Shown piece after piece: positions 12,383-64,000 of a stretch of DNA of 64,000 nucleotides. The DNA is from Zygnema cylindricum (taxonomy: Eukaryota > Streptophyta > Zygnematophyceae > Zygnematales > Zygnemataceae). The DNA lies in the NCBI GenBank assembly GCA_037447655.1, contig JBBHKE010003189.1, positions 71,364 through 135,363 on the forward strand, written 5' to 3'. The notes under the pieces were generated by a model, which saw nothing but the letters and a program-made list of their open reading frames with translations, had not been told where the DNA came from and ran no database searches. Position 1 is the first letter of the stretch; each line of letters opens with the position of its first letter. The position numbers were made by a program, and so were the translations under genes.

Positions 12383-12430
<48 letters not shown>

Positions 12431-16299: not shown

Positions 16300-17307
16300 T
16301 GCAATTCTGTGTCCTCCATTGGACTACAGAATACAGGAAGCCTCTAGATAGTATTTAACTAACCCACTTCAAGACACAACCACTGCTGCCCAAAAAATCA
16401 CACTGACAATTTGACTACACCCCTGTGCAGCCTGGACTCCCCTGAGTCCGTAGCAAAAAGAATCACTGAAAACGGCCAACCAGCCGATAAGTTAGGAGTC
16501 GGCAAAAATGCCAAGTTTATACAAACTCTCAAAGGGAGAGAGGTTCCTATCTACCAATATTCTCTAAGTCCTAAATCCCTCTCACAACCCCTATCTATTG
16601 AAGTACGAACCAATCAGATCACTGTAGGGTACAAAAAAGTACTATGGCCGATGTACTTTCTGTACGGCCCATGTACGACAACGCCATTAAGTGGACGCGT
16701 GTCCACTTTTCACTTGTCCTTATGTTCGCCGGAATTCCTGCGACCAAATGTCATCCCTCCGCGTGGCGCCACGTCACGCCACGTCCATAAACGCCAAAAG
16801 TGACCATTCCGCGATCGCGACATTGATGTAAGCCGTCGGATCAGATTCAATATTAAATGTCCGCCTTCAGAACAAATGTCCGATTCATTTGTTTTCGTGC
16901 GAGATAATGTTCACAATATATAATACTTGGTTCCATGTTCGTCCATTTGTAAGTCGGTTAATTGAATTCATACACGTAACATTGTATAAATAATAATCAA
17001 ACCTAATGTATCTCAACGGACTCCTACGACAGACTGGTTAGAGCTAACGGCTAAGCCGTGCTCTGCCGGTCGAAGGTTCGAGTCCTGCCGGACTCAACCT
17101 TTTGTTGGGAGTGACATAAGTCACTCTTTAGCCCTTCCTGCTAAGCTAGGACAGCCATGGCTCAACCACCCTCTCTATCCCTCAGTGACTACGACAAGTA
17201 TGGTGGGAAGGGAGAGGAGGTGGAGGCAGGTTGTCCGTCTTTTTCTTTTTCTTATTTGTACTAAATTCAGACCTAGAAAATACCAAATAAAACTACTAAT
17301 TTCAACA
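16300..17307 (-). mobile_element. solo LTR, Copia family A (1008 bp, ATTTG TSD)
   Basis: On the minus strand the LTR runs TGTTGAAATTAGTAG to GAATTGCA, giving canonical TG...CA ends. The 5-bp duplication ATTTG is at 16295-16299 and 17308-17312, inside a Harb-2 element. The same LTR, in full or in part, is at 18495-19497, 18062-18263, 30218-30393 and 32430-33438. Solo LTRs arise by recombination between the two LTRs of an inserted element. Confidence 0.93.
17033..17098 (+). promoter_or_regulatory. tRNA-like module in LTR (A-box and B-box look-alikes)
   Basis: Contains GACTGGTTAGAGCTAACGG (D-arm/A-box-like) and, 30-odd bases later, GGTTCGAGTCCTGCC, which matches the Pol III B-box consensus GGTTCGANTCC. 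The acceptor arm does not pair, so it is not an intact tRNA gene. The module is also present at 18700-18775 (reverse strand) and 33160-33228, always within family A LTRs. It reads opposite to LTR transcription. Confidence 0.55.
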
Positions 17308-17830
17308 ATTTGTAAAAAATTTGGACGAGAGAGATTCCTCGCTATTTTTACTCGTTGCTGTCACGTGCTATGTATGGAAAAAAAATGCAGGGGTGTCGGA
17401 CTTCCACTTGCATTCATGGGTCTTCAACATAATATTTTGTCGTCATCGCCTCTCTTCTCTCCCTCTCACACTATCGCTTGTATCTCACACTTTTTAGAAT
17501 GAGACAACAATATTGGTATAAAATGAAAGATATTTGAAAAATTTTTATTTTTTATTTTTTTAGGTTTTTATTTAATGGCAAGTCGAATGAGAAAAGTAGA
17601 AAAAAAGAAATCAAGAAACCATGGCGGAAAGTTCTTGAATCCGTGACGTCGACGTTGTCACAAGTGAGCGTGACATCACAATGTCACCAAACCCTAAACA
17701 TCTACAATTTCTAAAAAAATCTAGACGTCTACAACTGTCGTTGTTTTTGTTGGCGTCACCAATCGTCCGAAGTTTCGTAGTTGCCTTCAATTGTCACAAA
17801 GTTGTACCCACGTGTACAACCCTCACAAAT

Positions 17831-18696
17831 CAAAGTTCAGGTTTTATTTTTGCACATTGGGACGCTCTTCAAAGTAGTACGGAGAATCTTCACTACAGTC
17901 CAAAATACTTTATCAAAGTATCGATTACATGGGCACATACCCTAAATTTCAATTCTTCGGCTAAGTTAATATCCAACGTGCTCTAACCGTTGAGCTCACG
18001 TAACGACAAAAAGTGATTGTTTGCAACACTTTTATTTACATGTGGTTGTCGCAGTTTTGTTTGTTGAAATAAGTAGTTTTTGGTATTTTTTAGGTCTAAA
18101 ATATTTAGCGGAAACAGATGAAGAAAATGCAGGCAGCCTGCCTCCATCTCTTCTCTCTTGCCCCCATACTTGTTGTAGTCACTGAAGGAGAGAGAGAGCG
18201 ATGGAGCCATGGATGCCTCAACACCATAGGAAAGACTAAAGAGTAAGTCACTCTCAACAAAAGAAAAGTTCCGATTTCACTTTTGCACATTGGGATGCTC
18301 CTCAAAGTAGTAATGAGAATCTTCACTACAGTCCAAAATACTTTATCAAAGTATCGATTACATGGGCACATACCCTAAATTTCAATTTTTCGGCTAAGTT
18401 AATATCCAACGTGCTCTAACCGTTGAGCTCACGTATCGACAAAAAATGATTGTTTGCAACACTTTTATTTACATGTGGTTGCCGCAGTTTTGTTTGTCGA
18501 AATAAGTAGTGTTTGGTATTTTGTAGGTCTCAAATAATTAGCAAAAACAGACAAAGAAAATGCAGGCATCTTGCCTCCATCTCTTCTCTCTTGCCCCCAT
18601 ACTTCTTGTAGTCACTGAAGGAGAGAGAGAGAGCGATGGAGCCATGGCTGCCTCAGCTCCATAGGAAGGACTAAAGAGTAAGTCACTCTCAACAAA
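17831..18696 (+). repeat. tandem duplication (two units of about 433 bp)
   Basis: Unit 1 (17831-18263) and unit 2 (18264-18696) each comprise the right end of the Harb-2 element, the inverted-repeat arm CCAACGTGCTCTAACCG, and the first about 200 bases of a family A LTR. Unit 1 stops inside the LTR at CTCTCAACAAAAG, and unit 2 continues into the complete LTR. The duplication therefore happened after the LTR inserted. Confidence 0.88.
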
Positions 18697-19497
18697 AGGT
18701 TGAGTCTGGCAGGACTCGAACCAGCGACCGGCAGAGTGCGGCGTAGTCGTTAGCTCTAACCAATCTGTCATAGAAGTCCGTTAGGAGATATAGGGTTTGA
18801 TAAGTATTTAACTTATTATATAATACTGAAACCATTTAACTGAAATATGGATGAATGAACATAGAACTTGTTAAGGTTTAGTGCGAACGTCATTTCGCAC
18901 GAAACAAATGAATCAGACATTTGTTTCAACGGTCGACATTTGATGTCGGATTTAATCCGACGGCGCACATCATCCTCGAGATCGCAGAATGGTCACTTTG
19001 GCTTTTATGGACATGGCATGACCTGGCGCCGCGTGGAAGGATGACATTCGGTCGCGGGAATTATGGAGAATATACGAACGAGTGGAAAAGTGACACGCTT
19101 CCACTCAGTAGCCTTCTCCTACACCGGCCGTACAGAAAAAACATCGGCCGTAGTACCTTTTCTGTACTTTATTGTTATATGATTGGTTTGTACTTCAGTA
19201 GATAGGGGTTGTGAGAGAGGGTTAGAACTTAGGAAATTTTGGTAGGTAGTCACCTCTCTCTCTAAGAGAGCTTTGTATAAATTGGCATTTTTTGCCGACT
19301 CATAACTTATCGGTTGGTTAGTCGTTCTCAATGATTATTTTTGCTACGGACTTAAGGGAGTTCAGGCTGCAATGGGGTGCAGTCAAACTGTCATTTTGCC
19401 TTCCTAGACAGCAGTGGTTCTGGCTTGACGTGGGTTAGTTAAATACTATCGAGAGGCTTCGTGTATTCTCTAGTCCAATGGAGGACACAGAATTGCA
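18495..19497 (+). mobile_element. solo LTR, Copia family A (1003 bp, TTGTT TSD)
   Basis: Plus-strand LTR from TGTCGAAATAAGTAG to GAATTGCA. The five-base duplication TTGTT precedes it (18490-18494, and 18057-18061 in the duplicated unit) and follows it (19498-19502). The homologous left arm at 13980-13996 lacks the insertion, so that arm confirms the target site. The LTR ends at the same GAATTGCA as the solo LTR at 16300. Confidence 0.92.
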
Positions 19498-19757
19498 TTG
19501 TTACCGTAAACGTTCGTCTACCGTGTGAATTGCTAATATTGTTTTGATGGTCAATGTTCGCAAGCGCGGCAAAAGTTTAAGCGGTTGAAACAATATTTTG
19601 AAAGTCAAAGTTGTCCAACCGATTGACCGTCAAATTTAGACTCAACATTACTTTATTTGTACCAATGTGTACTTCAAACGTACAGTTTTTGACAAAATGA
19701 CGTGAGCGATTGTGCGCAACCATATCAGTCACTATCATGATCAATTCCCTGTATAAA
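19498..19757 (-). repeat. right arm of the 7.1-kb inverted repeat
   Basis: Reverse complement of 12660-12895 (GTCAATCGGTTGGACA and the nearby GTACGTTTGAAGTACACATT). It continues inward at 17946-18061. Unlike the left arm, it has no hAT-3 or TA-flanked element. Confidence 0.85.
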
Positions 19758-27996: not shown

Positions 27997-29559
27997 TCAA
28001 AATAATCCAAGTTTCGGTCGTCCCCTCTCAAACACATCATGTGTAGCAGCCTTTGTCAACAAATCAACCGCCTCCTCTTTAGTTGGTACGTACGAAAATT
28101 CAATCTCATTTGCCGTAACCAAATCTCTTACAAAATGCCATTGGATCCTGATGTGTTTCGTCCTCTTGTGAAACACAGGATTTTTCGCCAACGCCATAGA
28201 ACTCATGCTGTCAGAATGAATCGTCATACAACCAATAGGAATGCTTAACTCACGTAACATCTCCTTAATCCAAATCGAAGCCTTAGCTGCATGACACGCA
28301 GCCATATACTCAGATTCTGTGGAACTCAACGCAACCGTAGGTTGTAGCCTTGAACTCCACGAGATCGCAGCTCCCCCAAAAATAAATGCATATCCTGACG
28401 TAGACTTACTTGAATCAAAATCGCCGCCCCAATCCGCGTCACAATACCCAACACACTCCAAAGAATTTTTGCCAGAAGTAAACAAAAGTCCAAGATCAAT
28501 CGTACCAACCAAGTATCGAAAGATACGTCGTACGGCCTCCCAATGCGCCTTCTTTGGCTCGTGACAATAACGGCTTACGATAGAAACCGCGGCCGAAATA
28601 TCTGGACGAGTACCAACGCTAAGGTACATAAGTGAACCAACCGCCTCTCGATAAGGTACGTCGATAGAATCCTCCTCTTCAAACTTACGAATGTGTAGGT
28701 TTGCATCCAACGGTGTAGAAAGCGGTTTCGCGTCAGTCATACCGAATCTCTCCAAAATCTCCTTACAATATTGAGCTTGACTCAATTTAATGTTCCCCTC
28801 TTTGTCACGTATCACTTCAATCCCCAAAATATATCGTACCTCTCCAAGATCCGTTACTTTGAAATGTAATCCAAGATAACGTTTCAACTCATTAATGCGC
28901 TCCAACTTGTCGCATGCCATCAAGAAATCATCCACATAAACAGAAAAGATGATTTGATCAACTCCTTCACCTTTCACGTAAACTCCACAATCGGACGTAG
29001 TCCGTACAAATCCAAACTTCAATAACACTTGATGAAGTCTCAAATACCAAGTGCGTGGTGCTTGTTTCAAACCATATAATGATTTTCTCAAACGCCATAC
29101 ATTTCCTTCCTTCAAAGGAGAGACACCTTCCGGTACTTTCATATATACCTCTTCCTCCAACTCACCATTTAAAAACGCGGTCTCAACGTCCATTTGATGG
29201 ACGTGCTTCTTCCCCATCGCTGCAATTGCAATAATAATCCGTAGTGAGTCGAACTTCACCACGGGAGCATAAGTCTCCTTAAAATCGATTCCCTCACGTT
29301 GTTGGAACCCCTTACACACAAGCCTCGCCTTATACTTAATTATTTCACCCGACGCTCCAGTTTTGGTTTTAAAGACCCACTTTGCATCAATCGCCTTTTT
29401 CCCCTCCGGTAATTTCACTTCCTCAAAAGTTCGATTATCAACCACCGACTTAAATTCTTTCTCCCACGCCGGTTTCCACTTACTCTCCCAATCAACCGAC
29501 CTTCTAGCCTCGACATAAGATTGAGGGTCGCCGGTCATATTCTCCGTAAGTGATTGCTA
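27997..29559 (-). CDS. Copia element B: reverse transcriptase-RNase H ORF behind amber codon
   Basis: Second half of a Copia polyprotein. From the codon after the amber at 29559-29557 the frame is open to 27997, about 520 residues, with no lesion. Landmarks are KWVFKTKTGASGE, HQMDVETAFLNGELEEEVYM, the catalytic FSVYVDDFLMA of RT, and the RNase H stretch GYCDADWGGD with ALSSTESEYMA and the terminal DLLTKAA. The first Met is at 29538, seven codons past the amber, but the N-terminal residues before it (QSLTEN) are conserved in the sister elements. That argues for readthrough rather than a new start. The function is cDNA synthesis for retrotransposition. Confidence 0.92.
29551..29559 (-). promoter_or_regulatory. 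candidate programmed stop-readthrough signal, TAG-CAA-TCA
   Basis: The amber codon ends the integrase-containing ORF (...ETEFLL) and is followed in the same frame by the RT ORF. TAG CAA TCA fits the TMV-type consensus UAG-CAR-YYA. The same arrangement occurs at 44677-44685 and 61189-61181 in related elements. Confidence 0.75.
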
Positions 29560-30217
29560 CAAAAGAAACTCCGTCTCCTTAGCATCGGAAAGAACATAAT
29601 GCGAATTTGATGTATTTTCCCCTTTTCGATCGTAAGTGAGTTTCTCCGGTTTCTTCCCCTTTGTAATCCGAGAGCTCCTCCTAATAACTTGCTCCTCCTC
29701 TTTTTCTTCTTTCTCTTCCTCGGATTCAATTTCAATTTCCTTCTCACTCGATTTAGAACTCAATTTAGAACTTTGAGATTTCCGAATGTTCGAAGGCACT
29801 CGGGAATCCAAAGATCCATTACTCTTACTTCCAAATTCAATTTCAACCGATTTCTTCAAATTCTTTTTCTTAGTTTCCTCATTCGGTTCCACATCGGATT
29901 CCGAATCCCCAATGTAAGGAAAGTTCTCAATTTCACTCTCCTCATAGAAATCCAAATTTTCTTTAAATTTCCCAACGGAATTCATGGCGGATTTGAGATC
30001 CTCATGAAAATCCACATTCCGAGATTCCTCCACGGTGTGACGAGCCGGATCATACACTTGGTACAAATTCCCCTTCGCACTATAACCAACAAAAATTCCC
30101 GGCCAACACCTTGGTGCAAATTTCCCCTTCCTCTTAATTGATTCTACATAAACCGTAGCATGACATCCCCAAATTCTCAAATGATGAACCGTGGGCTTTC
30201 TACCACTCCATAACTCA
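29560..30217 (-). pseudogene. Copia element B: integrase C-terminal part, 5'-truncated
   Basis: Open on the minus strand from 30217 to the amber codon at 29557. It starts within the integrase at GRKPTVHHLRIWGCHATVYV, then GIFVGYSAKGN and EESRNVDFHEDLKS, followed by an acidic/Ser-rich linker ending in SDAKETEFLL. The catalytic DDE core, protease, Gag and 5' LTR of element B are missing. Upstream, at 30218, the sequence switches abruptly to a family A LTR. The linker is the usual spacer between integrase and RT in Copia elements. Confidence 0.88.
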
Positions 30218-30393
30218 GGATAGCCAAGGTAGCCATGGCTCTAGCTTCCTCTCCAATTTCTCAGTGACTGCGACAAGTTTGAGAGTTGGAGAGAGAAGTT
30301 AGAGATAGACTGCCTCGACTTCTATATTTCTTTTCAGACCTAGAAAATACTAATAAAACCATTAGTTTCTACAACTATCTCCTAGTGATCCGT
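30218..30393 (-). mobile_element. family A LTR fragment (first 176 bp of the 3' LTR of element A)
   Basis: On the minus strand it begins TGTAGAAACTAATGG and continues with the family A LTR start (TATTTTCTAGGTCTG). It breaks off at 30218 where element B integrase begins. It is in the position and orientation of a 3' LTR for element A, but the entire RT-RNase H region between integrase and this LTR is absent. Confidence 0.82.
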
Positions 30394-31480
30394 TCAACCT
30401 CTCAGCTACCCCATTCTGTTCCGGCTAATATGGTACGGTCTTCCAGTGTTGAATTCCCTCATCTCTCAAATACTCCTCAAACAGGCTAGCGGTATATTCC
30501 CCCCCATTATCACTCCTTATTCTCTTAATGGGGTTTCATGCAACTTCTCACTCCACGCTTTACATTTTTTAAAGAAAGTTGGTGTTTTAGACTTTGATTT
30601 TAGGAAGTAGACTCTAGAGTTTCTAGACCAGTCATCGGTTATTGTCAACAAAAACCTCTTCCATCCCACAGAAGGTGCTTTTGCAGGTCCCTAGATATAT
30701 GTGAGCACCAAATCTAGTACTTTCTCACACCTATATGTGGCGGCTTTGGGAAAAAGGAGTCTGTGAGCCTTACCTCGAGCACAACCACTACAACCATCCA
30801 CCATTTCATTATCCCCAAAATCAATGCCTTCAACTACACCAAGCTTCTTCATTTCTCCAGCCTACCAAAATGCACATGCCCCAACTGCTTATGCCAAATC
30901 ATCAATTTTGGAACACCAACATAGTAAGCATTCTCCTTTTCATTACTCTATTTAAGCCTAAATATTCCTTAGCTACTTTTATCTGTCGTGAAGTAGACTT
31001 CATCCCCATACTTAGCTGTAAAGACTCTTTTTCTAGTGAATGTATCAAACTCTTTGTCATCTAACACAGACGTAGAGACTAGATTTTTACTCAGTTGAGG
31101 AATGTATAGTACACTTGAAAAGGTGAGAATAGAAGTCTTACCCTCCACTAAGATTTTAAAATCTACCAACCCCACTAGATCTGTGGTAACCACTCTCCCA
31201 TCCCGATACTCTATCTCTACAGTGGGGATCTTTCTTAGCTTAGTAAAGAAGTGCTTATCACGACACATATGCATGGATGCACCTGAGTCGATGATCCATC
31301 CTGTCGATGATCCATCCTTCATGTGGAGCTTCCCGAATTGCATCGAGAGCACACTTCTGTTTCTGAGGGATCTCCTTCTCTTTCAAACTCTCGTCAAGAA
31401 GAAGCTCCCCATCCTCCTCCTCATAGGACTCATCCTCGGTTTCTCCTTTCACTTTTGTGACCACATATGCCTTCTTTTTC
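30394..31480 (-). pseudogene. Copia element A: protease and integrase, damaged
   Basis: 31352-30969 (minus) is a protease ORF with the active-site WIIDSGASMHMC and the later VLYIPQLSKNLVS. Towards lower coordinates comes integrase with RSDNGGEYTA and PEQNGVAERLNGS (near 30530-30405), interrupted by stops, for example just before PEQNG. The sequence runs straight into the 3' LTR fragment at 30393. RT and RNase H are deleted. This lineage is distinct from elements B-D, whose protease and integrase sequences differ. Confidence 0.85.
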
Positions 31481-32449
31481 TCTCTGGAAGAACCCCCCCC
31501 CATGGTTCTCTTGAAGCCTCAACTTCGACAGCTTGACACAATCCGCTATGAAGTGTCCCGTTTTTTGCAAAAGTGACAAAGACCCTTTGGGGGCCTCGGT
31601 CCTCCAGACTGATCTCTCTCTCCTTTGAATGGTTTCTTCGGATCCTTCCCTCATCGGTTTCCTCCTGCAGCTAGAGTTTGGATGCTTTTTCCACCCCTCC
31701 TAATCTCAATTGTGTTCTCTTGCATAAGTATCATCCGGACCAGTGTGTTCCACTTCCATGAACTGTTAGTCATTTCCTGTACTCGGTAAACTATGTTGTC
31801 ATACTCGTCGGGTAACTTCACGATGAGAGTGTTAACTTTCATCTTCATTGTACCTATCCTCCGTCTCCATATACAAACAAGAGAGATCATTACAATAGTC
31901 TAATATCTTTCCCTCTTCGTAAGAATAATTCCCTAACTTTTGTTTGGCCAATTGGAGCTCCTGAATAGTACCACCTCTATAGATTTCCACCAAACTCACC
32001 CACAACTCCTCGGCCTTATAAATGTGAAGATGGGGGGTTGCCAAAGCCTGAGTGAGGTGTCTTAGAATGAAGTTTTTGGCAGCCATGCTGATGTCTTCCC
32101 ACGTTTGGGTGTCGTTCTCCGCGGTCTTCACTGTCCCCGCTCCGGGTGCCATGGTAATAGGAGCAATATGAGTAAGAGGCGTCTCCTTTTCTTTCCCTTT
32201 TTCGGACACACTGCTGTTCCCATCATCTGCCTCCTCTGCTGCAGCACAGGTTGCTGCAAATAACCTTATTCCACCAAACCCTGGTGGAGTTCGCTTAGGT
32301 GGACGTTTCACTTGTCCACTGATAATACCCCAGTATCGTTTTTTGCACAAAGCCCCTATCATCGTGGCTTCCCAATAGATGAACCCATATCCATTGAAGG
32401 TGGGCACCCTAGAGGGTGGGCCCATAACTTGCAATTTTGTGTCCTCCAT
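31481..32449 (-). pseudogene. Copia element A: Gag, frameshifted
   Basis: The open frame 32449-31832 starts MEDTKLQ and contains PTFNGYGFIYWEATM and KKRYWGIISG, typical of the Copia Gag N-terminus. It then shifts frame near 31850 into KVNTLIVKLPDEYDNIV (31890-31651). It shifts again to a degenerate zinc-knuckle region, KTGHFIADC near 31550, whose first Cys pair is lost. The first codons (32449-32430) lie inside the LTR end. Confidence 0.8.
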
Positions 32450-33438
32450 TGGACTACAAATTTCAAGAAGCCTCTCGATAGCTTTTAACTAACCCACTTT
32501 CAGCCACAACCACTGCTGCCCAAGAGGACAAATTGACACTCTAACTGCACCCTTGTGCAGCTTGGACTCCACGAGTCCGTAGCAAAAAAAATCACTGAAA
32601 ACAGCCAACTAGCCGATAAATCATAAGGTGGCAAAGATGGCAATTTATATAAACTCTTAAAAAGAGAGGTGCCTGTCTACAAAAAAAAATACTAAGTCCT
32701 AAACCCCTTTCACAACCCCTATATACTATAGTACGATGTAATCAAATCATTGTGTAGTATAGAAAGGTACTACGGCCGATGTACTTTCTGTACGTCCTGT
32801 GTACGACAAGGCCATTGAGTGGACGCGTGTTCATGTTTTACTCGTCCTTATGTTCCCCAAAATTTCCGCGACCAAATGTTATCTCTCCGCGTGGCGTTTG
32901 GTCATGCCATGTCCGAAAACCGCCAAAGTGACCATTCCGAGATCTCGGTGCTGATATGTGCCGTTGGATGAAAAACCGACATTTAATGTGAATCGACGAA
33001 TTAAATGTCTGATTCATTTGTTTCGTGCGGATAACATGTTCGCACTATATTTCAACTGGTTCTATGTTCCCTTATTCATAATTGCGTTAATTTAATTAAT
33101 AATCATATCATAGTTTATATATTTATCACACCTTATATATACTAGCGAACTTCTACGACAGACCGGTTAAAAGGTGATGGCTACGCCTCGCTTGGCAGGT
33201 CGGAGGTTCGAGTCTTGCCGGACTCAACCTTTGTTTGAGAGTGACTTATGTCACTTTTTAGTCGTGCTTATAGAGTTGAGGCAGCCATGGCTCCATCACT
33301 CTCTCTCTCCTTCAGTGACTACAACATGTATGGGGGCTAGAGAGAAGGTTTGGAGGTAGGCTACCTGCGCTTGTCTTGCCTTTTTCATTTTAACTAATTC
33401 GACCTATAAAATACACTATAAATCTAGCTATTTCAACA
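32430..33438 (-). mobile_element. 5' LTR of Copia element A (1009 bp)
   Basis: On the minus strand it runs TGTTGAAATAGCTAG to AAAATTGCA, the same borders and length as the two solo LTRs. It contains a TTTATATAAA TATA-like box near 32645. The tRNA-like module is at 33160-33228. The bases following the LTR, AGTTATGGGCCCACC, do not resemble the usual initiator-Met tRNA primer site TGGTATCAGAGC. Confidence 0.88.
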
Positions 33439-33778
33439 TTGTATATTGGTAGCCATTTGCTGATAACCGATATGCTCCTTTTTTGTCCTACGGATAATCA
33501 AAATATTGGTATGACATATCGGAACGGGTGTTATCGCGATAAAAATCGATAATATCGATTTTTTATCGCGATAACACTGATTCGATAACCATTGGCGATT
33601 ATTTGTACTCCGGTACGGAATGGATTGTGAAAAAAAAAAATCCATACTCATTTCGTACAATGTTTCCGTACTATAAATTCCGTATTATTTGAAAGGATGT
33701 AATGGCAACCCTCATCGTTCGATAACCGATAACTATCGATATTGGTTTTATTGCGTAATATAATCTTGATACATAACT
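33439..33778. mobile_element. hAT-2 relative, reverse and internally deleted
   Basis: Reverse complement of hAT-2: CGATAACCGATAACTATCGA near 33718 and GATAACCGATATGCTCCTTT near 33462. Terminal repeats are decayed. It directly abuts the family A LTR on the left and MITE-1 on the right. Confidence 0.7.
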
Positions 33779-35324: not shown

Positions 35325-35849
35325 ATGGCCGCCCTTTCTCAAACCATGTCTGTGAAAGCTCCGGCAGCTTTCTCCCTCTCCTCCTCCCGGAATTCTTCCG
35401 TTTCTCGCCGCTCTATCTCTCTTCCTCGCCGCTCCGTATCTCTCTCTGTCTCCGCAACTGCTGTGGATATGGACAGACTCGTTGCTGACGTCAAAAGCCT
35501 CACTCTCGAGCAAGCCAGAATCCTCACTGACAGACTCCAGGAAGAGCTTGGAGTCTCAGCAGCCGCCATGATGCCCATGGGAGGAGGCGTAGCTGCTCCT
35601 GCAGCAGCTGAAGCAGCTCCAGTGGTCGAAGAGAAGACCGAGTTTGACTTATTTTTGGATGAAGTTCCTTCCAGTTCAAGAATTGCTGTGATTAAGGTTG
35701 TCAGAGCTTTGACAGGATTAGGGTTGAAGGAAGCAAAAGACATGATCGAAGGATTGCCGAAGAAAGTGAAGGAGGCTGTGGCGAAGGAAGATGCCGAGGA
35801 TGGTTTGAAGCAATTGGAGGCTGCTGGAGCTAAATGCAGTGTTAAGTAA
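35325..35849 (+). CDS. RPL12: plastid 50S ribosomal protein L12 (bL12c), nuclear-encoded precursor
   Basis: A 174-residue precursor of the L7/L12 stalk protein, which recruits elongation factors to the chloroplast ribosome. Residues 1-47 are Ser/Ala/Arg-rich (SLSSSRNSSVSRRSISLPRR) with no acidic residue, a typical chloroplast transit peptide. The N-terminal dimerisation helix region follows (DRLVADVKSLTLEQARILTD), then an Ala/Gly/Met hinge (about 83-105). The conserved C-terminal domain EFDLFLDEV, IAVIKVVRALTGLGLKEAKD, MIEGLPKKVKEAVAKEDAED runs to the end. The length suits the family after transit-peptide removal (about 125 aa). There is no intron. The first ATG was chosen because it gives a full transit peptide; a second Met is at residue 8. 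Confidence 0.96.
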   Translation: MAALSQTMSVKAPAAFSLSSSRNSSVSRRSISLPRRSVSLSVSATAVDMDRLVADVKSLTLEQARILTDRLQEELGVSAAAMMPMGGGVAAPAAAEAAPVVEEKTEFDLFLDEVPSSSRIAVIKVVRALTGLGLKEAKDMIEGLPKKVKEAVAKEDAEDGLKQLEAAGAKCSVK

Positions 35850-40270: not shown

Positions 40271-40796
40271 AAGGTGTTCTGAATGTTCTGAATATGAGTC
40301 AGTTTGTGTGAAGATAAATTGACGAGGACATGATTTAGTGAGTATGTAAACTCGAAAGGGAGTACACAGATTTGGTGCACTCCAGGCACACGTGTCGGTC
40401 CGTGAGAAAGCTACCATTGAGTTAAACTCATTGGAAATAAATATCCACAACCATTACGGTCAAAACCGCATATGATCTTTAACTTGAACGCTGAGTGTCT
40501 GAACAATACTTGATCACTAAGTTTGTATTGTACTAACTTTCGATGTTGGCCAGTGCACACTAACAATTTAACCGTAATTTCTTAAAAATTAGATTTTATT
40601 GGTGGATAGTCGAAAACATTATGCTAACAAAGTTGGTAACAAATTGTAACATTTTTATTGATATTTCACAATGGGATTAAAGGATCTAAGAGGTACGTGT
40701 TAGATGATGTATGTATTGTAACTATTTGATGTTATGTAAAATTGAGATTTAAAGGTGTAGCTTGATTGCTATTTTGATATGCAGCTTGTTATGATT

Positions 40797-41309
40797 CGCT
40801 GTGGAAATGAATTGTTACGTTTAGCGTGTCGTCTCAGTCCCAGTTTTGCTGGTTCGTTTTACTTCAATGTGTGGATTCAGTTTGGCGTCATTTGATTTAA
40901 GTTGGCGTCTTATGAGTTGTTAGTTGTTTCGTCCGTTGCGTTTTGTCCGGTACGGTTTATAATGTTATTTAGTGCGCTGTAATGTTGTGTTTCGCTTTCA
41001 GTGCGCGCCATTCAGTTTCGGCGCACACTGTCTGTATTAGGCGCACATTCCCTACCTTTGGCATATCTTCATTTGCAGCTTTATCACTAAGTGTTAGTGG
41101 TAGTTTTACGTCGGTTGGGCAGAAGTATTTTAGTGAGGAGAGTTGTGTAGTTTATCATTATCAAGAAGAGAAGGAAGAAAAAATATGTTGTAAGAAAGTC
41201 CTCAATTAAGTATATTATTGATTGGGGAATTCTGTGAGCTCCTAACTGAATGCTTCCGCATGCTATTTGAATTGAATGTTCTGTAGTAAGCCGTGCTCCA
41301 TTTCTATCA
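40797..41309 (+). mobile_element. 5' LTR of Copia element C (513 bp)
   Basis: TGTTATGATTCGCTGTGG to CCATTTCTATCA. The 3' LTR at 46274-46797 is nearly the same over its length. Five bases before it (CAGCT) do not match the five after the 3' LTR (AGAGG), so no target duplication is seen. Confidence 0.93.
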
Positions 41310-41310
41310 T

Positions 41311-41325
41311 TTGGTATCGGAGAAG
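41311..41325 (+). other. primer-binding site of Copia element C
   Basis: TTGGTATCGGAGAAG directly follows the LTR. It fits the initiator-Met tRNA complement TGGTATCAGAGC with a G for A change. This contrasts with element A, where no such site is present. Confidence 0.75.
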
Positions 41326-41367: not shown

Positions 41368-43494
41368 ATGGGAAGGAAGAAGAAGGTGGGAAGGAAGAAG
41401 AAGGTCGCAACTCCACAGTTTGCTCCTGCGCAGTCTGATACTCCAGGGCCGAGTCGTGGGGGCTTCAGTGCTGCACAATTCGAAGAAGCTAAAGATACAG
41501 ATACTTCTGCACAGGAGGAAGAAGCAAGAGGGGGAGCAGCAAGAGGGGGAGCAGCAGGAGGAGCAGGGATGTTTCTCACAGTGGAAAGGCTTCAAACACT
41601 TCTAACTGGAGTTTTTGAAGGCGTGCTCTCAGCTGCCCCTCAAGGGGGCAGGCTGCAAGTCTACAATAGAGGAGGTAGTGGATACGTGGATGGAGAAACT
41701 GAAGATGAGAGGAGAGAAAGAATCCGGAAAGGAAAATTTGAAGCCGAAGATGAATCTGACTCGGAGGAAGACGACGATGAGGAGGATGATAAACTGATGC
41801 AGATGCCTGGCAAAGTCGTTCTCTTCAATGGAACGAACTACTATATCTGGAAGAGATATATTCAAGGACACATATTCAAAGACAGATATATTCAATGACA
41901 GTTCAAACTTTGACGTCTTTGGAAGATTGTTACATGAGAGGAGCCTATGCCGATTTCTGGTCGCAAGGCTAGAAATAGATAGAGACGTAGGAATGTTGCC
42001 GCCTATACCAGATTAATGCAAACCTATACCCCTGCAGTTCATGATTATTTCTTGACACATGATTCTGTACATGAATGTTGGCGGGCCATTGAAAACGAAT
42101 TTGAAAAAGGAATTCAAAATCGGGGTCAACATGCATATAAAGAATTTCAGAACTTTAAGATGACTTCGAATGAGTCGATTGGAGACGCTTCAAAACGATA
42201 CAATCTGATTGTGGAACGTTTAGCGGCTACCGGTCAGTTTGTTATTGAGGCGGACAAGGTGACCGGCTTTCTTAATGCCTTGCCGGAGAGGCTTTTCCAT
42301 CTAAAAGAAATTTTGAGTGTAAAAAAGAGGTTGATTTATTCATTTATTATATCATACTTGAAAGATAACGCATATAATCGAGGGAGTCCTTCTCGGAGCA
42401 CTCCTCCCTCCGGTTTGTTAAATTCAACCAATTCTAATTCCGCCGACTTATCTTATCTCCGTGATGGCGGAAGAGGAGGAGGAAGGGGAGGAGGCCCGAG
42501 AGGTAGAGGAAGGGGACAAGGGAAAAACGAAAATCCAAAGCCCTTTCCGTCCGCCCCCGACCTGAATTCTGTCGCTTGTTTTCATTGCAACAAACTTGGA
42601 CATTTGGCGGTGTCATGTCCCGATCGGCAATGCTACTCTTGCGGCAAATGGGGGCACTTAAGTTCTCAATGCTATACAAAATCGGAAGGAGAAGTTGGAG
42701 GTGGTAGAGAAGGATTTAATGGAGGCTGTGGTGGCTTTAACGGCGGCCGCGGAAGAGGCCGCATAGGTAGCCGAGGAAGAGGACGCTTTGGAGGCCGTGG
42801 TGGTGGCCGTTTTGGCGGTCAAGGACATTTTCTCGGAGACGGTGGATATGAACAGGAAGAGGAAGAAGGTGCTCAGATTTTCACTTGTCTCAACCTCTCG
42901 GTTAATTCATCAACGGAAAACGGAAATGTGGAGAAGGAGTGGGTGATCGATACAGGGGCATCACATCACGTTTGCACCAATGTGACAGTTTTTGATGACT
43001 TGCGACAATTGACAATTCCAAAGAAAATTACGGTTGCAAGCGGACAAGTAATTTCTGTCACCAATGTGGGAACCGTCCGTTTAGACCTTCCCACATTGAA
43101 TTTCGAAGGAAGAGAGCGTGTCACTCCGACCCGTTTGGTCAACGTACTTTATATCCCCGATGGTTCGGTTAACTTATTGAGTGTCCCGCAGATCCAACGC
43201 ACGGGTGGTAGTGTATATGCTCTTGGAGATTCGACAATTCGCATTGTTAATAAAAAATGAGTCATCATTGGTGAAGGGGAAGTTACGGAAAATATGCATA
43301 GTCGATTAGTTTGGCGGCGGTCTAAGGTTAATGCACATCCGAATATGATTTTGAATCAAATTTCAGAATTTAAAGGTGATTTAAGTCTTTGGCATCGCCG
43401 AATGTGTCATACATCCGAGGGAAACCTAAGGAGGATGATCAAAACCGGTTGTGTGAGAGGGTTAGATTTGGCTTCGGGTGAAAAATTTAATTGA
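41368..43494 (+). pseudogene. Copia element C: Gag, zinc knuckles and protease (stop codons)
   Basis: All parts lie in one reading frame with internal stops (41896, 42013, 43258, 43492). 41368-41898 is an N-terminal extension, basic then acidic, reaching FNGTNYYIWKRYI (Gag start). A short duplicated ATATTCAA patch near 41860-41895 disrupts Gag. 42016-43260 gives the rest of Gag with two zinc knuckles (CFHCNKLGHLAVSC and CYSCGKWGHLSSQC), a Gly/Arg-rich linker, and the protease site WVIDTGASHHVC. 43294-43494 is the GAG-pre-integrase domain (LWHRRMCHTSEGNLRRM). Element D at the window end is the intact counterpart. Confidence 0.92.
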
Positions 43495-44679
43495 TGTGAG
43501 GGATGTAGTCAAGGGAATCAAATTCGAAAACTTCATCCACCGAAAGATATCAAGTTTCGGTCCTCTCATCCCTTTGATTTAATCCACATTGATTTGTGTG
43601 GACATATAAAACTGAAAAGTATTGGTGGAAATCGGTACATGATGGTCATTGTCGATGATTACTCACGTTTCTCATGGGTGATCCTTTTAAAACATAAATC
43701 TGAAGCATTAGAGAGGTTTAAGGAGTGGCACATCATGGCGGAACGAGAATGTGAACAAAAATTGAAATCCGTTTGTTCGGATAATGGCGGTGAATTTATT
43801 GCTTTTGATGGATATTGTCGAGCATGGGGGATTAAACATCAATATACGGCATCTTACTCCCCGGAATCAAATGGAGTGGCTGAACGCAAAAATCGGACTC
43901 TCGAAGAAATGGTCCGAGCTATGGTGCATGCATCCGGTCGTTCTATTTCACTTTGGGGAGATGCTCTCTTAACCGCCAATTATATATGTAATAGTCGACT
44001 TACTTCCATCTCGGGCGATAAGACACCTTATGAGTTGTGGTACGGACGGAAACCAACTCTACATCACTTGCGGATATGGGGATGTCATGTTACCGTATAT
44101 GTTGAATCACAAAATCGACGAGGAAAATTTGCATCGAGAAGTTGGTCGGGAAATTTTGTAGGATATAGCACGTGAGGGAATCTTTACCGAATTTATGATC
44201 CCTCACGGCATATGATTATTGAATCACGAAATGTTAATTTCCACGAGGACCTGAAATCTGTAATTGAAGAATTGGCAAAATTGCGAAGAAATTTGGATTT
44301 TCATGAAGAAGCCGAAACCTCAAATTTCCCGGACATTGAGGAGTCGGATGATGAAATAGAGGCTGATTTGGATGTCAATAATAAGAGGGGGAAACGAAAT
44401 CTGGGCATTGAAGAAGAAATTGACAACATTGACATTGAATCGCGACATTCAAATTCTCGAATGTCATCCGAATCACGGAATTCTACAAATTCAAAATCTT
44501 CCTCTTCAAGTCAAACTGAACTGGATAAAGATAAGGAGTCGGATGTTAATTTACGAACAAGTACACGAGAAACTAAGGGGAGAAAACCGGCTAGATTGTC
44601 TTTTGACCGAAAAGGAGGAAATGTTGAAAACTCACATTAATTCATTTCGGCGACTAAGGAGGAGGATTTCCTCCTTTAG
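43495..44679 (+). pseudogene. Copia element C: integrase and linker, ending at amber codon
   Basis: 43594-44175 carries the integrase core: VDDYSRFSWVILLKHK, CSDNGGEFIAF, YSPESNGVAERKNRTLEEM. A TGA at 44173 and a TAA at 44638 (where elements B and D have Tyr) are lesions. After the acidic/Ser linker the frame ends ...EEDFLL and then TAG at 44677-44679. It is in the same frame as the Gag and RT parts. Confidence 0.9.
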
Positions 44680-44685
44680 CAATCA
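44677..44685 (+). promoter_or_regulatory. candidate programmed stop-readthrough signal, TAG-CAA-TCA
   Basis: Amber codon followed by CAATCA, matching the TMV-type UAG-CAR-YYA context. It lies between the integrase linker and RT at the same place as in elements B and D. Confidence 0.72.
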
Positions 44686-46233
44686 CTTTGTGAGAACTCA
44701 ATTGGTGACCCCCGATCATACTCTGAAGCAAGAAATTCGGGTGATTGGAAGTCGAAATGGCAACCGGCATGGGAGAAAGAATATAAGTCCATTGTCGAAA
44801 ATCGAACATTTGAGGAAGTTGATTTACCGGAAGGGGAAAATGCGATCGATGCGAAGTGGATTTTCAAGACAAAAACTGGAGCTTCTAGAGAAGTAATTAA
44901 GTATAAGGCTAGACTAGTGTGCAAGGGTTTTCAGCAAGGGGAAGGAATTGATTTTCCAGAGACATATGCGCCAGTCGTAAAATTTAACTCTTTGCGGATG
45001 ATTATTGCAATTGCGGCACTTGGAAAGAAACACATCCATCAAATGAATGTCGAAACCGCGTTCTTAAACGGCGAGCTTGAGGAAGAAGTGTATATGAAGG
45101 TCCCGGAGGGAGTTACCTCAAAGGAAGGGAAGGTATGGCGCCTGAGGAAGTCTTTGTACGGATTAAAGCAAGCGCCTCGTACTTGGTATCTACGATTACA
45201 TTCGGTACTAACCGATTACGGATTTAGACGGACTACATCAGATTTGGGAGTTTATATTAAAGGGGAAGGAGAAGATCAAATTATCTTCTCAGTTTATGTT
45301 GATGATTTTCTGATGACTTCTGACAGTCTGCAGAAAATCAATGAACTGAAGGCTTATTTGGGCCTTCACTTTAAGGTGACCGATATGGGAGAAGTCCGGT
45401 ACATTTTGGGGATAGAGGTGATTCGTCACCCTAACGTTGACATCAAATTGAGCCAAGCTCAATATTGCAGGGAAGTTCTGACACGGTTTGGTATGCTAAA
45501 TGCAAAACCGATTTCTACTCCTTTGGATCCGAAAATGCAGATTCGGAAATTTAAGGAGGAAAATGATGTTGAAGTTCGGTATCGAGAAGCGATCGGAAGC
45601 TTGATGTATCCCAGTGTGGGTAGAAGGCCAGACATATCGGCAGCAGTCTCTGTCGTCAGCCGATATTGTCATGCGCCGAAGAAGGCTCACTAGGAAGCCG
45701 TGAAACACATATTTCGATACTTGGCCGGTGTGGTTGACATCGGCCTATTATTTCAATCGAGTGGAAGTCCGGAGTGTACCGGTTACTGTGACGCGGATTG
45801 GGGTGGCGATTTCGACTCCGTAAAGTTAACTTCCGAATACGCATCCGTGTTCGGCGGTGCGGCAGTTTCCTGGAGTTCGCGTCTGCAACCAACAGTTGCG
45901 TTAAGTTCGACGGAGGCTGAATATATGGCGGCTTGCCATGCCGCTAAAGCATCGATTTGGTTAAAAGAGATGCTCAGTGAATTAAAGATTTCAATTGGCT
46001 GCTTGCAGATTTTTACGGATAGCATGAGCTCCATGGCGCTTGTTAAAAATCCAGTATTTCACAAGCGTACGAAGCAGATCCGTATTCAGTGGCATTTTGT
46101 ACGCGATTTGGTCACCTCAAAAGAAGTGGAGTTTGTGTTCGTGTCGACTTTGGAAGAAGCCGCAGATTTACTAACTAAAGCAGCTACCTATGATGTGTTT
46201 GTCAGAGGGCGTCCAAAGTTAGGATTAGCGTAA
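44680..46233 (+). pseudogene. Copia element C: reverse transcriptase-RNase H with one nonsense codon
   Basis: After the amber the frame reads QSLCENS and then the conserved KWQPAWEKEYKSIVENRTFE, ETAFLNGELEEEVYMK, FSVYVDDFLMT, YILGIEVIR. RNase H follows with GYCDADWGGDF, ALSSTEAEYMAAC and DLLTKAA, ending at 46231. The one lesion is TAG at 45691-45693, where element B has TGG (KKAHWEAV). There is no frameshift in about 1550 bases. Confidence 0.92.
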
Positions 46234-46260: not shown

Positions 46261-46273
46261 CGAAGAGGGGGAT
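46261..46273 (+). other. polypurine tract of Copia element C
   Basis: CGAAGAGGGGGAT immediately precedes the 3' LTR; plus-strand DNA synthesis would start here. Elements B (27964-27974) and D (60944-60955) have nearly the same tract. Confidence 0.85.
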
Positions 46274-46797
46274 TGTTATGATTCGTTGTGGAAATGAATT
46301 GTTACGTCCTGCGTGTCGTCTCAGTTCCAGTTTTGCTGGTTTGTTTTACTTCAATGTGTGGATTCAGTTTGGCGTCATTTGATTTAAGTTGGCGTCTTAT
46401 GAGTTGTTAGTTGTTTCGTCCGTTGCATATTGTCCGGTACGGTTTATGATGTTATTTAGTGCGACGTAATGTTGTGTTTCGCTTTCAGTGCGCGCCATTC
46501 AGTTTCGGCGCACACTGTCTGTATTAGGCGCACGTTCGTCTACCTTTGGCACATCTTCATCCGCAGCTTTATCACTAAGTGTTAGTGGTAGTTTTATGTC
46601 GGTTAGGCAGAAGTATTTTTAGTGAGGAGAGTTGTGTAGTTTATCATCATCAAGAAGAGAAGGAGGAAAAATATGTTGTAAGAAAGTCTTCAATTAAATA
46701 TATTATTGATTGGGGAATTCTGTGGGCTCCTATCTGAATGCTTCCGCATGCAATTCTGATTGAATGTTCTGTAGTAAACCGTGCTCCATTTCTAACA
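46274..46797 (+). mobile_element. 3' LTR of Copia element C (524 bp)
   Basis: TGTTATGATTCGTTGTGG to CCATTTCTAACA, closely alike to the 5' LTR with scattered substitutions. It is followed without a target duplication by a kilobase of purine-rich satellite. Confidence 0.93.
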
Positions 46798-60943: not shown

Positions 60944-60980
60944 TTCCCCCTCTTCATTGAAGAATCGTCTACGTCACAAT

Positions 60981-61186
60981 AATCCTAGTTTAGGTCTTCC
61001 TCTTAAAAGCACATCAAACGTCGCCGCCTTAGTAAGCATATCGGCAGCTTACTCAAGTGTCCGATTTTCCACAATTGATTTATACTCCTTCTCCCATGCC
61101 GGCTTCCACTTCGTTTCCCAATCACACGAGTTTCTTGCCTCCGCGTATGATTGAGGATCACTGGCCAAATTCTCGCACATTAATTG
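60981..61186 (-). pseudogene. Copia element D: RT-RNase H reduced to its two ends
   Basis: After the amber at 61189-61187 the frame reads QLMCENLASDPQSY and KWKPAWEKEYKSIVENRTLE. It then meets TAA and continues in the same frame AADMLTKAATFDVLLRGRPK, the very C-terminus of RNase H. About 1.3 kb encoding RT and most of RNase H are gone. The element can only be mobilised in trans. Confidence 0.88.
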
Positions 61187-61189
61187 CTA
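61181..61189 (-). promoter_or_regulatory. candidate programmed stop-readthrough signal, TAG-CAA-TTA
   Basis: Amber codon followed by CAATTA, identical to the classical tobamovirus readthrough hexanucleotide. It separates an undamaged Gag-protease-integrase ORF from the in-frame RT remnant. Confidence 0.78.
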
Positions 61190-64000
61190 TAAAAGGAATT
61201 CCGTCTCCTTCGCATCGGAGACGAAATAATAGGAATTGGAATTCTCTCCACCAATTTTGTCATAAGAAAGCCGATTCGGTTTCTTTCCTCTATTCTCTCG
61301 AGTACTCCGTCTAAGAAACGGAACTTGTTCCACATCTTGCTCCTCCTCGTCCATATTTGGTAAACTCGATTTTGAGCTTGAGGATTTTTGACTTTCCGTC
61401 GACATTTTGGAATTTCGGCTCACATTACTCCGAACATCAATGTCAATGTCTAATTTCTCCGAACTTGAATTAACATTTGATTTTCCCTTCTTGATATTGA
61501 CAATGGATTCCGGTTCCTCATCCGAGTCCGAATCCTCAATTTCCGGGAAATTGGCAACATCGTCTACCTCATAAAAATCAAGATTCTTCTTCAATTCCGC
61601 CGATTTCTCAATAACCGATTTTAAATCTTCATGAAAATTGACATTTCTGGATTCTTCCACAATGCGACGAACTGGATCAAATACACGATAAAGATTTCCT
61701 TTCGTGCTATAGCCCACGAAAATTCCGGGCCAACTTCTCGCCGCAAATTTCCCTTTTCTTTTCACTTGATCCACATACACCGTAGCATGACATCCCCAAA
61801 TTCGGAGATGATGGAGGGCCGGTTTTCGCCCATAAAGTAATTCGAATGGTGTTTTGTCACCGGAAACCGAAGTAAGTCTCCGATTACAAATATAATTGGC
61901 CGTGAGTATAGCATCTCCCCATAATGAGATACTTTGACCGGCCGAATGCACCATCGCCCTCACCATTTCTTGTAAGGTCCTATTCTTCCTTTCGGCTACT
62001 CCATTTGATTCCGGAGAATAAGGTGAAGTAAATTGTTGGGTAATTCCTTTCTCCTTACAATACCTCTCGAATGCGATAAATTCTCCTCCATTATCCGAAC
62101 GAATGGCTTTCAATTTCTGTTCGCATTGTCTTTCGGCAAATGCATGCCACTCAATAAAAGTTTGAAGAGCATCCGATTTTCTCTTCAATAATCGAACCCA
62201 CGAAAATCTTGAATAATCATCAACGATGACCATAATATATCGATTTCCTCCGAGGCTCTCCGGCTTAATTTGTCCACATAGATCAACGTGGACAAGCTCC
62301 AAAGGATGTTGAGCCCGAAATTTCACATCCTTCGTTGGATGTGATTTCCGAATTTGTCGTCCTTGGCTACATCCATCGCACCCATTTACTTTTTCACCGG
62401 TAGCAAGATCTAATCCTCTTACACATGCCGTTTTTATCATTCTCCTCAAATTTCCTTCGGATGTATGGCACATCCGATGGTGCCACAACGTTAAATCTCC
62501 CTTTAATTCTGAGATTTGATTTAGAATGCCCGTAGAAGAAGCATTCTTCCTCGGTCGCCTCCATAAAAGTCGGCTATGCATCGAATTGGTTACTTCGCCT
62601 TCGCCGATTAATTTGCCGTCGGCGCGATATATACGAATCGCCGAATCACCTCTAGCGACTACGCTCCCACCGGCTCGCTGAATTTGAGGTACACTTAATA
62701 GATTCACTGAACCATCCGGAATATATAGGACATTCAATAGACGCGCCTCCGAAATAGTTTCATTTCCAAAACGGTCCCATGTAGGTAAATTCAATCGAAC
62801 GGTACCCACTTTACCAACCGTAATCGTTTGTCCACTTGCTACCGTAATTAACTTTGGTACGGTAAGTGAACGCATGTCGTCAAAAAGTGTAGCGTCCGTA
62901 CACACGTGGTGAGACGCTCCCGTGTCAATAATCCACTCCTTTTCGCGTGCGTCACTTGGTTCACTTAATGAATCAATAGAGAGGTGAAGACAAGTGAACG
63001 TTTCTCCTCCTTCGTCTCCTTCAAAATTTCCCAAGTCAACAAAATTTCCATAGCTTCCACCATGACCGCCATACCGTCCACGACCACGACCACTATCACG
63101 TACGCGACCGCGACCTCCAAAACTGCGACCGCCTCTTACTCCTCCGCTACTAAATTTAGAGTAGCATTGTTGGCTCGTGTGGCCTAGTTTCCCACAATTG
63201 AAGCATTCTCTCTCTTTATCCGGACAAGAAGCTGAAAAATGACCGGGCCGGTTACAACGGAAACACAAGACGTTGCTATTATCATTTTGGACGGACCGAG
63301 GTCTAGAATTTCCGCCCTTATCAAGCCATTTTCCACGACCTCTCGGACCTCCTCCTTTTCCACCCCCTCTTCCACGGAAATAATGTAAGTCCGCGAATTC
63401 GGGAGCGGTCACATTCAAGGATCCCGTGTCCAAAGAGCCTTTTGAAGAGCTAATACGATTACTCTCCGCCATCTTTAAATAATTCACAATAAACTCGTAA
63501 GTATTATTTTCCCTCGCAAGTAAAATTTCCTTGAGATGGATCCACTTATCCGGTAACGCATTCAAAAATCCGGTTACTTTGTCCTCCTCCGTGATCACTC
63601 TCCCATTGTTAAGAAGTTGCTCCACAATAATATTGAATCTCTTCACGGCATCGTCAAAAGATTCATTGGATTTCATTTTGAATTGCATAAAATCGGAAAA
63701 CATATATTGGCCCTTGTTTTGGATTCCCCTCTCAAATTGGGATTCCAACGCCTTCCAACATCCGTGTGCGGTGCTATGCGTGAGGAAATGATCATGCACA
63801 GAAACTGAACAAGTTTGCATCAATCCGGTGATGGCCGCAAGATTCTTTCGCTTCCACAACCGACGAGCCTTCACATCTCCAACCGGTATTTTCTCTTCTC
63901 CATTGACGACCTTCCAAAGGCCTCTCAAAATCAATTGAGCTCGAATATATTTCTTCCACGAAGGGTAATTCGATCCATTGAATACGACGGTCTTTCCGGG
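61187..64000 (-). CDS. Copia element D: Gag-protease-integrase ORF, intact in window, 5' end outside
   Basis: The frame is open from 64000 down to the amber at 61187 (about 937 codons). It starts inside Gag (KTVVFNGSNYPSWKKYIRAQ), then has two zinc knuckles (CFRCNRPGHFSASC, CFNCGKLGHTSQQC) in Gly/Arg-rich sequence. The protease site is EWIIDTGASHHVC. GAG-pre-integrase follows (LWHHRMCHTSEGNLRRM), then integrase with VDDYSRFSWVRLLKRK, RSDNGGEFIAFERYC and YSPESNGVAERKNRTLQEM, then KPALHHLRIWGCHATVYV. An acidic/Ser linker ends SDAKETEFLL. The absence of any lesion suggests a recent insertion. With RT deleted downstream, the element would supply Gag, protease and integrase only. Confidence 0.95.
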   Translation of the reverse strand, partial: PGKTVVFNGSNYPSWKKYIRAQLILRGLWKVVNGEEKIPVGDVKARRLWKRKNLAAITGLMQTCSVSVHDHFLTHSTAHGCWKALESQFERGIQNKGQYMFSDFMQFKMKSNESFDDAVKRFNIIVEQLLNNGRVITEEDKVTGFLNALPDKWIHLKEILLARENNTYEFIVNYLKMAESNRISSSKGSLDTGSLNVTAPEFADLHYFRGRGGGKGGGPRGRGKWLDKGGNSRPRSVQNDNSNVLCFRCNRPGHFSASCPDKERECFNCGKLGHTSQQCYSKFSSGGVRGGRSFGGRGRVRDSGRGRGRYGGHGGSYGNFVDLGNFEGDEGGETFTCLHLSIDSLSEPSDAREKEWIIDTGASHHVCTDATLFDDMRSLTVPKLITVASGQTITVGKVGTVRLNLPTWDRFGNETISEARLLNVLYIPDGSVNLLSVPQIQRAGGSVVARGDSAIRIYRADGKLIGEGEVTNSMHSRLLWRRPRKNASSTGILNQISELKGDLTLWHHRMCHTSEGNLRRMIKTACVRGLDLATGEKVNGCDGCSQGRQIRKSHPTKDVKFRAQHPLELVHVDLCGQIKPESLGGNRYIMVIVDDYSRFSWVRLLKRKSDALQTFIEWHAFAERQCEQKLKAIRSDNGGEFIAFERYCKEKGITQQFTSPYSPESNGVAERKNRTLQEMVRAMVHSAGQSISLWGDAILTANYICNRRLTSVSGDKTPFELLYGRKPALHHLRIWGCHATVYVDQVKRKGKFAARSWPGIFVGYSTKGNLYRVFDPVRRIVEESRNVNFHEDLKSVIEKSAELKKNLDFYEVDDVANFPEIEDSDSDEEPESIVNIKKGKSNVNSSSEKLDIDIDVRSNVSRNSKMSTESQKSSSSKSSLPNMDEEEQDVEQVPFLRRSTRENRGKKPNRLSYDKIGGENSNSYYFVSDAKETEFLL

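Follow-up and report, generated by a model that had tools for sequence, protein, structure and literature searches.

An in-frame UAG with a CAR-YYA context between integrase and reverse transcriptase in Copia retrotransposons of Zygnema cylindricum

How does a Copia retrotransposon express its reverse transcriptase (RT) if an in-frame stop codon stands between it and the integrase? The question is raised by a stretch of 64,000 nucleotides of the Zygnema cylindricum genome (contig JBBHKE010003189.1; hereafter, the window), where three diverged Copia elements, termed B, C and D, each have a TAG between Gag-PR-IN and RT-RNase H. CAR-YYA directly behind a stop permits leaky UAG in tobamoviruses, and the TAG of the Copia elements is very probably a site of programmed UAG readthrough with a signal of the tobacco mosaic virus (TMV) type, which would ration RT-RNase H.

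Structure and divergence of the three elements

The three junctions were read directly and have the composition originally noted: the integrase linker ends in FLL, the TAG follows, and the same frame continues into RT through CAATCA in elements B and C and CAATTA in element D. In element B, the in-frame UAG that separates the integrase linker from RT is located at 29557..29559 of the minus strand and is directly followed by CAATCA at 29551..29556. The corresponding positions are 44677..44679 and 44680..44685 on the plus strand for the UAG and CAATCA of element C, and 61187..61189 and 61181..61186 on the minus strand for the UAG and CAATTA of element D. All three hexamers fit CAR-YYA; the CAATTA of element D we take to be the hexamer of the TMV leaky stop.

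The domain order of the elements, Gag-PR-IN-RT-RNase H, is that of Copia (Ty1/copia). Element B retains 227 codons ahead of the stop with the C-terminal SH3-like domain of the integrase and the linker (29560..30240, minus strand). Its ORF2 (28000..29556, minus strand) encodes RT (RVT_2, residues 41-283) and the RNase H region, and ends with a TGA at 27999-27997 of the same strand. With 519 codons and no inner stop, the RT-RNase H frame behind the amber is undamaged, as had been proposed for this element. Upstream of position 30240, element B joins a different decayed Copia element with its own gag domain (30240-32488, minus strand), either by nesting or by recombination.

An undamaged Gag-PR-IN ahead of the amber had been claimed for element D and was likewise found. 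Its ORF1, which includes Gag, a zinc knuckle, a PR-like domain, integrase and the linker (61190..64000, minus strand), is open up to the window edge, for 936 codons within the window and 1047 codons in the genome. The ORF2 of element D is a remnant (60974..61186, minus strand) that contains the first 45 codons, a large deletion that extends as far as the C-terminus of RNase H, and a TGA.

Element C is decayed. Its ORF1 region (Gag-PR-IN) extends from the first ATG over positions 41368..44676 of the plus strand, and its ORF2 (RT-RNase H; 44680..46230, plus strand) has one decay stop at 45691 and terminates with a TAA at 46231-46233 (plus strand). The amber and the terminal stop left aside, the amber frame of this element contains nine extra stops, at 41896, 41911, 41935, 41980, 43258, 43492, 44173, 44638 and 45691. 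Only in element C did we find the pair of LTRs with a putative primer-binding site and a putative polypurine tract expected of a Copia element. The 5' LTR (40787..41309, plus strand) is approximately 93.7% identical to the 3' LTR (46274..46797, plus strand), which begins 40 bases after the ORF2 stop. The putative primer-binding site, TGGTATCGGAG (41312..41322, plus strand), is presumably of the initiator-Met tRNA type, and the putative polypurine tract, GAAGAGGGGGA, is at 46262..46272 of the plus strand. No direct repeats of at least 60 bases were found around elements B and D, the latter of which runs past the window edge.

Pfam domains recognized before the stop of element D are gag, zinc knuckle, Pol_BBD, pre-integrase, rve and SH3. 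Element B has SH3 before the stop and RVT_2 after it, and element C has gag, Pol_BBD and RVT_2. A match to the Pfam RNase H family was reported in none of the three elements, and RNase H was assigned through similarity, over the full length, to other Copia proteins. A search of the PDB with the RT gave no match.

The linker stretch of element B is 54% identical to that of D and 50% identical to that of C; in RT, B and C share 79% identity. In six comparisons covering both sides of the TAG, two of which use the mere 45 codons of D ORF2, pS is 0.70-0.78 and pN is 0.12-0.29. By this measure, both flanking frames are under purifying selection, with synonymous sites near saturation. Because synonymous divergence is near saturation and nonsynonymous divergence is low, the stop common to B, C and D does not result from recent copying, in agreement with the original prediction.

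Several other features were observed in the window. A repeat family of approximately 1 kb, whose members are 76-79% identical and occur in both orientations, is present at 16300-19500 and 32430-33443. Tandem arrays, with a 24-mer in 8 copies and an 11-mer repeated about 31 times, and a 45-base run of C were found at 6877-7064, 8830-9174 and 12385-12429. The window also contains a gene for ribosomal protein L12 of the plastid type (35325-35849, plus strand), which ends in TAA and whose product has an N-terminus resembling a transit peptide; it suggests a photosynthetic, probably green-lineage host.

Conservation of the stop and its context

The assembly (352.8 Mb in 2689 contigs) was searched using the first 160 residues of B ORF2 as a query, and the best 150 of 17719 candidates were scored. 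A query with the first 160 residues of C ORF2 likewise yielded the best 150 of 17797 candidates, a list that overlaps the first. We sampled 92 junctions, comprising the 30 best matches to the B query, 20 more from the B list, 40 from the C list, and elements C and D of the window. These junctions are not independent: the 30 best matches, window element B among them, are 97-100% identical to B, and the other 60 fetched junctions were picked by hand for diversity or odd frame length.

The internal codon is TAG in 87 of the 92 junctions, TAA in one (copy L050), and a sense codon in four, namely AAG in L060 and L096, TAT in L063 and TGG in L104. The six bases behind the stop position are CAATCA in 73 junctions, CAATTA in 16, CAACTA in two and CATTCA in one; CAR-YYA is present in 91 of them, and the last codon of the signal varies within YYA only (TCA, TTA, CTA). 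Grouping of the junctions with gaps at 95%, 90% and 85% nucleotide identity produced 27, 12 and 9 groups, respectively. TAG was found in the representatives of 26 of the 27, all 12 and all 9 groups, and CAR-YYA in every representative. Gapless grouping at 85% gives 10 groups; since copy L097 is a D-type copy with a small deletion, 9 groups were used. The alignment of related copies, which had been named as a check of the prediction, supports it in this sample, both the TAG and the hexamer being kept in nine of nine groups that share less than 85% identity.

A sense codon in most relatives would have counted against a leaky stop. The four copies that have one were all chosen for their long frames, and none of them is a full fused frame, because these frames comprise 606, 782, 848 and 906 codons. 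The frame ahead of the TAG is disturbed in at least four copies (L049, L062, L068 and L081). Among 134 copies scored with the D integrase as a query, the longest frame has 1136 codons and 45 copies reach at least 1000 codons; the longest RT-containing frames in the two lists of best 150 have 782 and 906 codons. In a search of the genome with RVT_2, frames of at least 1400 codons were observed in 61 of 150 matches. Eight of these matches were fetched, and all belong to other Copia elements; seven share 41-42% identity with the RT of element B, and the eighth is in two pieces.

The terminal stop was located in 50 of 51 loci and is TGA in 38, TAA in 11 and TAG in one; 32 of these stops come from B-type loci, and ten are out of the starting frame of ORF2 through indels. 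By contrast, 48 of these 51 loci have TAG as their internal stop. None of the 460 other distinct stops in the same frame of the 51 loci, some of which lie in indel-displaced stretches or outside the element, is followed by CAR-YYA. Three of 1969 in-frame hexamers from B ORF2, C ORF2 and D ORF1 fit CAR-YYA, and two of the three are the junctions of B and C. In the ORF2 of six lineages, 59 of 517 codon columns have the same third base in every lineage. The columns that are always Ser or Leu in these lineages have A as the third base throughout in two cases of 56, one of which is the second codon after the stop. Of 10 glutamine columns, five are CAA in every lineage, among them the first codon behind the stop. 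Since most Gln codons (69 of 82) are CAA, the CAA half of the signal says little, and YYA is its stronger part.

Two explanations under which the TAG would have no regulatory meaning can be weighed against these data. The stop could be a product of decay, either inherited from one dead master element or arisen by alike chance mutations, as the decayed state of element C and the further damage carried by many sampled copies might suggest. We consider this highly improbable, for purifying selection has acted on both frames through near-saturating synonymous divergence with the stop present, the stop is kept in every one of the nine groups, and 10 of the 48 TAG-bearing loci have an ORF2 of at least 510 codons and are free of further stops over the roughly 1.5 kb examined upstream. 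Alternatively, UAG could be a sense codon for glutamine in the host. UAR is reassigned in some green algae, and three of the RVT_2 matches have an inner stop, in each case a single TAG. The idea deserves almost no credence in view of the 147 of 150 RVT_2 matches that are stop-free inside, the TAA that terminates the plastid-type L12 gene, and the restriction of TAG to the junction within the examined parts of B and D.

Relatives outside the genome were sought in sequence databases. Among the 120 listed of 2920 database matches, the metagenomic proteins P0121-P0124 stand apart from the rest with 56.5-65% integrase identity; the next of the matches listed is P0128 at 51%, and the others are below 47%. 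Three of these proteins, P0122, P0123 and P0124 (1022, 1072 and 1064 residues), lack an RT domain and end at the site equivalent to the stop, with the C-termini EDS, DLA and DLI, respectively. The fourth, P0121, is a fused protein of 1574 residues with 65% integrase identity that reads DFLF-C-HMNG across the site, with the Cys at or near the stop position. Protein P0001, 63% identical to B ORF2, has no initial Met and begins at the stop position to within about one residue. Scans of viral contigs revealed no relative, and a scan of genome contigs revealed six distant Copia loci with 29-43% identity; the three examined at the junction have no stop at this site.

In the integrase tree, the nine rows of the Z. 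cylindricum genome and P0121-P0124 form a clade with support of 100/99. With midpoint rooting, P0122-P0124 are on one side of this clade (96/92), P0121 is placed next to the lineages of the genome with moderate support (81/75), and the fused P0128 is outside. On this tree, the split could be ancestral and lost in P0121, or it could have arisen twice; the fusion in P0121 is possibly a loss of the leaky stop.

Expression of RT-RNase H

We propose that translation would usually terminate at the UAG, yielding Gag-PR-IN in which the integrase has a natural C-terminus. A minority of ribosomes would decode the UAG, aided by the type I signal UAG-CAR-YYA, and would continue in the same frame to produce Gag-PR-IN-RT-RNase H, from which RT-RNase H would later be released. 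Gag and integrase would be made in equal amounts, and RT-RNase H would be a small fraction. That the UAG is read through, that this is a minority event and that the product is processed we infer from the sequence. As in a type I signal, the UAG is directly followed by CAR-YYA and the same frame continues into a coding region under selection. Readthrough accounts for all features of the junction. Frameshifting, which we also considered, is disfavoured: no frameshift is needed because ORF2 continues in the frame of ORF1. The importance of CARYYA for readthrough is named in a passage of a study of Verticillium (PMC3441728).

ORF2 could also be begun independently once ribosomes have terminated at the TAG, through reinitiation or internal entry. 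An in-frame AUG is indeed found early in ORF2 at codon 7 in B and L046, codon 3 in D and L097, and codon 5 in L075. By contrast, in C, L053 and L054, three of the five lineages whose ORF2 is complete, the first in-frame AUG is reached only at codon 107, within RT, and none is present within the approximately 50 ORF2 codons seen in L082 and L099. As several lineages are without an AUG near the ORF2 start, reinitiation cannot serve the whole clade. It requires no same-frame ORF2 and leaves CAR-YYA unexplained, and we regard it as very unlikely.

The main rival to readthrough is a splice acceptor. TAG/CAA would then be a 3' splice site, RT-RNase H would be translated from a subgenomic RNA that acquires its AUG from a spliced 5' exon, and the TAG would only end ORF1. 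Pyrimidines occupy 8-10 of the 12 bases ahead of the TAG in ten sequences; they make up only 9-11 of 20 bases, so the region further upstream is purine-rich. The termini of P0122-P0124 are incompatible with a clean pyrimidine run. CAG is the commoner splice acceptor and would leave the frame open, yet it was found in none of the 92 junctions. A possible donor context, AAG/GTGGGA, is located just behind the first ATG of element C, and regulation of gag by splicing is described for Drosophila copia in a passage of PMC2194720. An acceptor, however, requires neither a TAG in the frame of ORF1 nor CAR-YYA behind it, and splicing seems to us an unlikely explanation of the junction.

Readthrough signals of type I (CAR-YYA) are not known to need a 3' RNA structure, and structures in other readthrough systems start 8 nt after the stop. 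A candidate hairpin was observed downstream of the stop of element B (29487..29525, minus strand, with arms at 29515-29525 and 29487-29497), where the stem begins about 31 nt after the stop. Single-sequence folding of 120 nt from the stop was no better than that of shuffled sequences, with z-scores of -0.24 for B, -0.49 for C and -0.45 for D. When 150 nt of nine lineages were folded with RNAalifold, the stem had a z-score of -3.1, and two of 300 column shuffles were as low; the z-scores were -4.4 for the first 90 columns, +0.6 for the first 60 and +0.2 for columns 10-75. On 30 sequences, 84.5% of the cells of the 11-pair stem can pair. The stem has a covariation score of 0.202; shuffled alignments gave 0.126 +- 0.012, none of the 500 reaching the score of the stem, and sliding the stem along the alignment gave no more than 0.110. 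Three pairs are changed on both sides, a number matched in 153 of 500 shuffles; most pairs fall on conserved residues, and RNAalifold's own covariation term for the stem is only -0.07. We treat the hairpin as a weak lead that shows some synonymous covariation.

Comparison with known systems and implications

Retroelements usually set the Gag:Pol ratio at the gag/pol boundary, rationing PR, RT and IN together. To our knowledge, no described retroelement has an expression plan that matches integrase to Gag and rations only RT-RNase H. One close parallel is the leaky UAG of the TMV replicase, a type I signal in which UAG is likewise followed by CAR-YYA and whose CAAUUA is shared by D-type copies. 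TMV makes a short product in bulk and, in smaller amounts, a longer one that includes the polymerase, as we propose for the Copia clade. However, TMV is an RNA virus, whereas here the stop splits integrase from RT in a Copia retrotransposon, and the argument for readthrough is drawn from sequence.

Other Copia elements also have in-frame stops. According to a passage of PMC2829016, SIRE1 (a Sirevirus) is a Copia element whose in-frame stop is passed by suppression, but the stop is located after pol and before an env-like ORF. The stop described here is inside pol, and in element C, 40 bases separate the ORF2 stop from the 3' LTR. The Ty1/copia element Tca2/pCal of Candida albicans likewise has an in-frame stop to be passed; as described in part of PMC2194720, it is a UGA between gag and pol with a possible pseudoknot, and PR, IN and RT are all behind it. 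In element D, by contrast, Pol_BBD (PR-like) and integrase precede the stop. VdLTRE5 of Verticillium, also a Copia element with a leaky-stop arrangement, has a UGA between gag and pol that is reported, in the relevant passage of PMC3441728, without CARYYA. Most plant retrotransposons are said in a passage of PMC2829016 to have a single gag-pol frame. Our limited search of the literature (including PMC2194720, PMC3441728, PMC2829016 and PMC3587641) found leaky stops at gag/pol (Tca2, VdLTRE5) and pol/env (SIRE1) and none between integrase and RT.

Type I readthrough and stop suppression in Copia elements are thus already known, and, to the extent of this limited search, the placement between integrase and RT is new. 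We think it rather probable that these elements represent a Copia clade older than the lineages of this genome, with UAG-CAR-YYA readthrough between integrase and RT, possibly aided by a hairpin, with integrase stoichiometric with Gag and only RT-RNase H rationed. If this is true, a ration point inside pol that spares integrase would uncouple integrase dosage from RT dosage, and the readthrough hexamer of plant viruses would be shown in use by a retrotransposon. The many copies in the genome provide a natural series for the study of how stop context is kept. Annotation that requires one pol frame would label all such copies broken.
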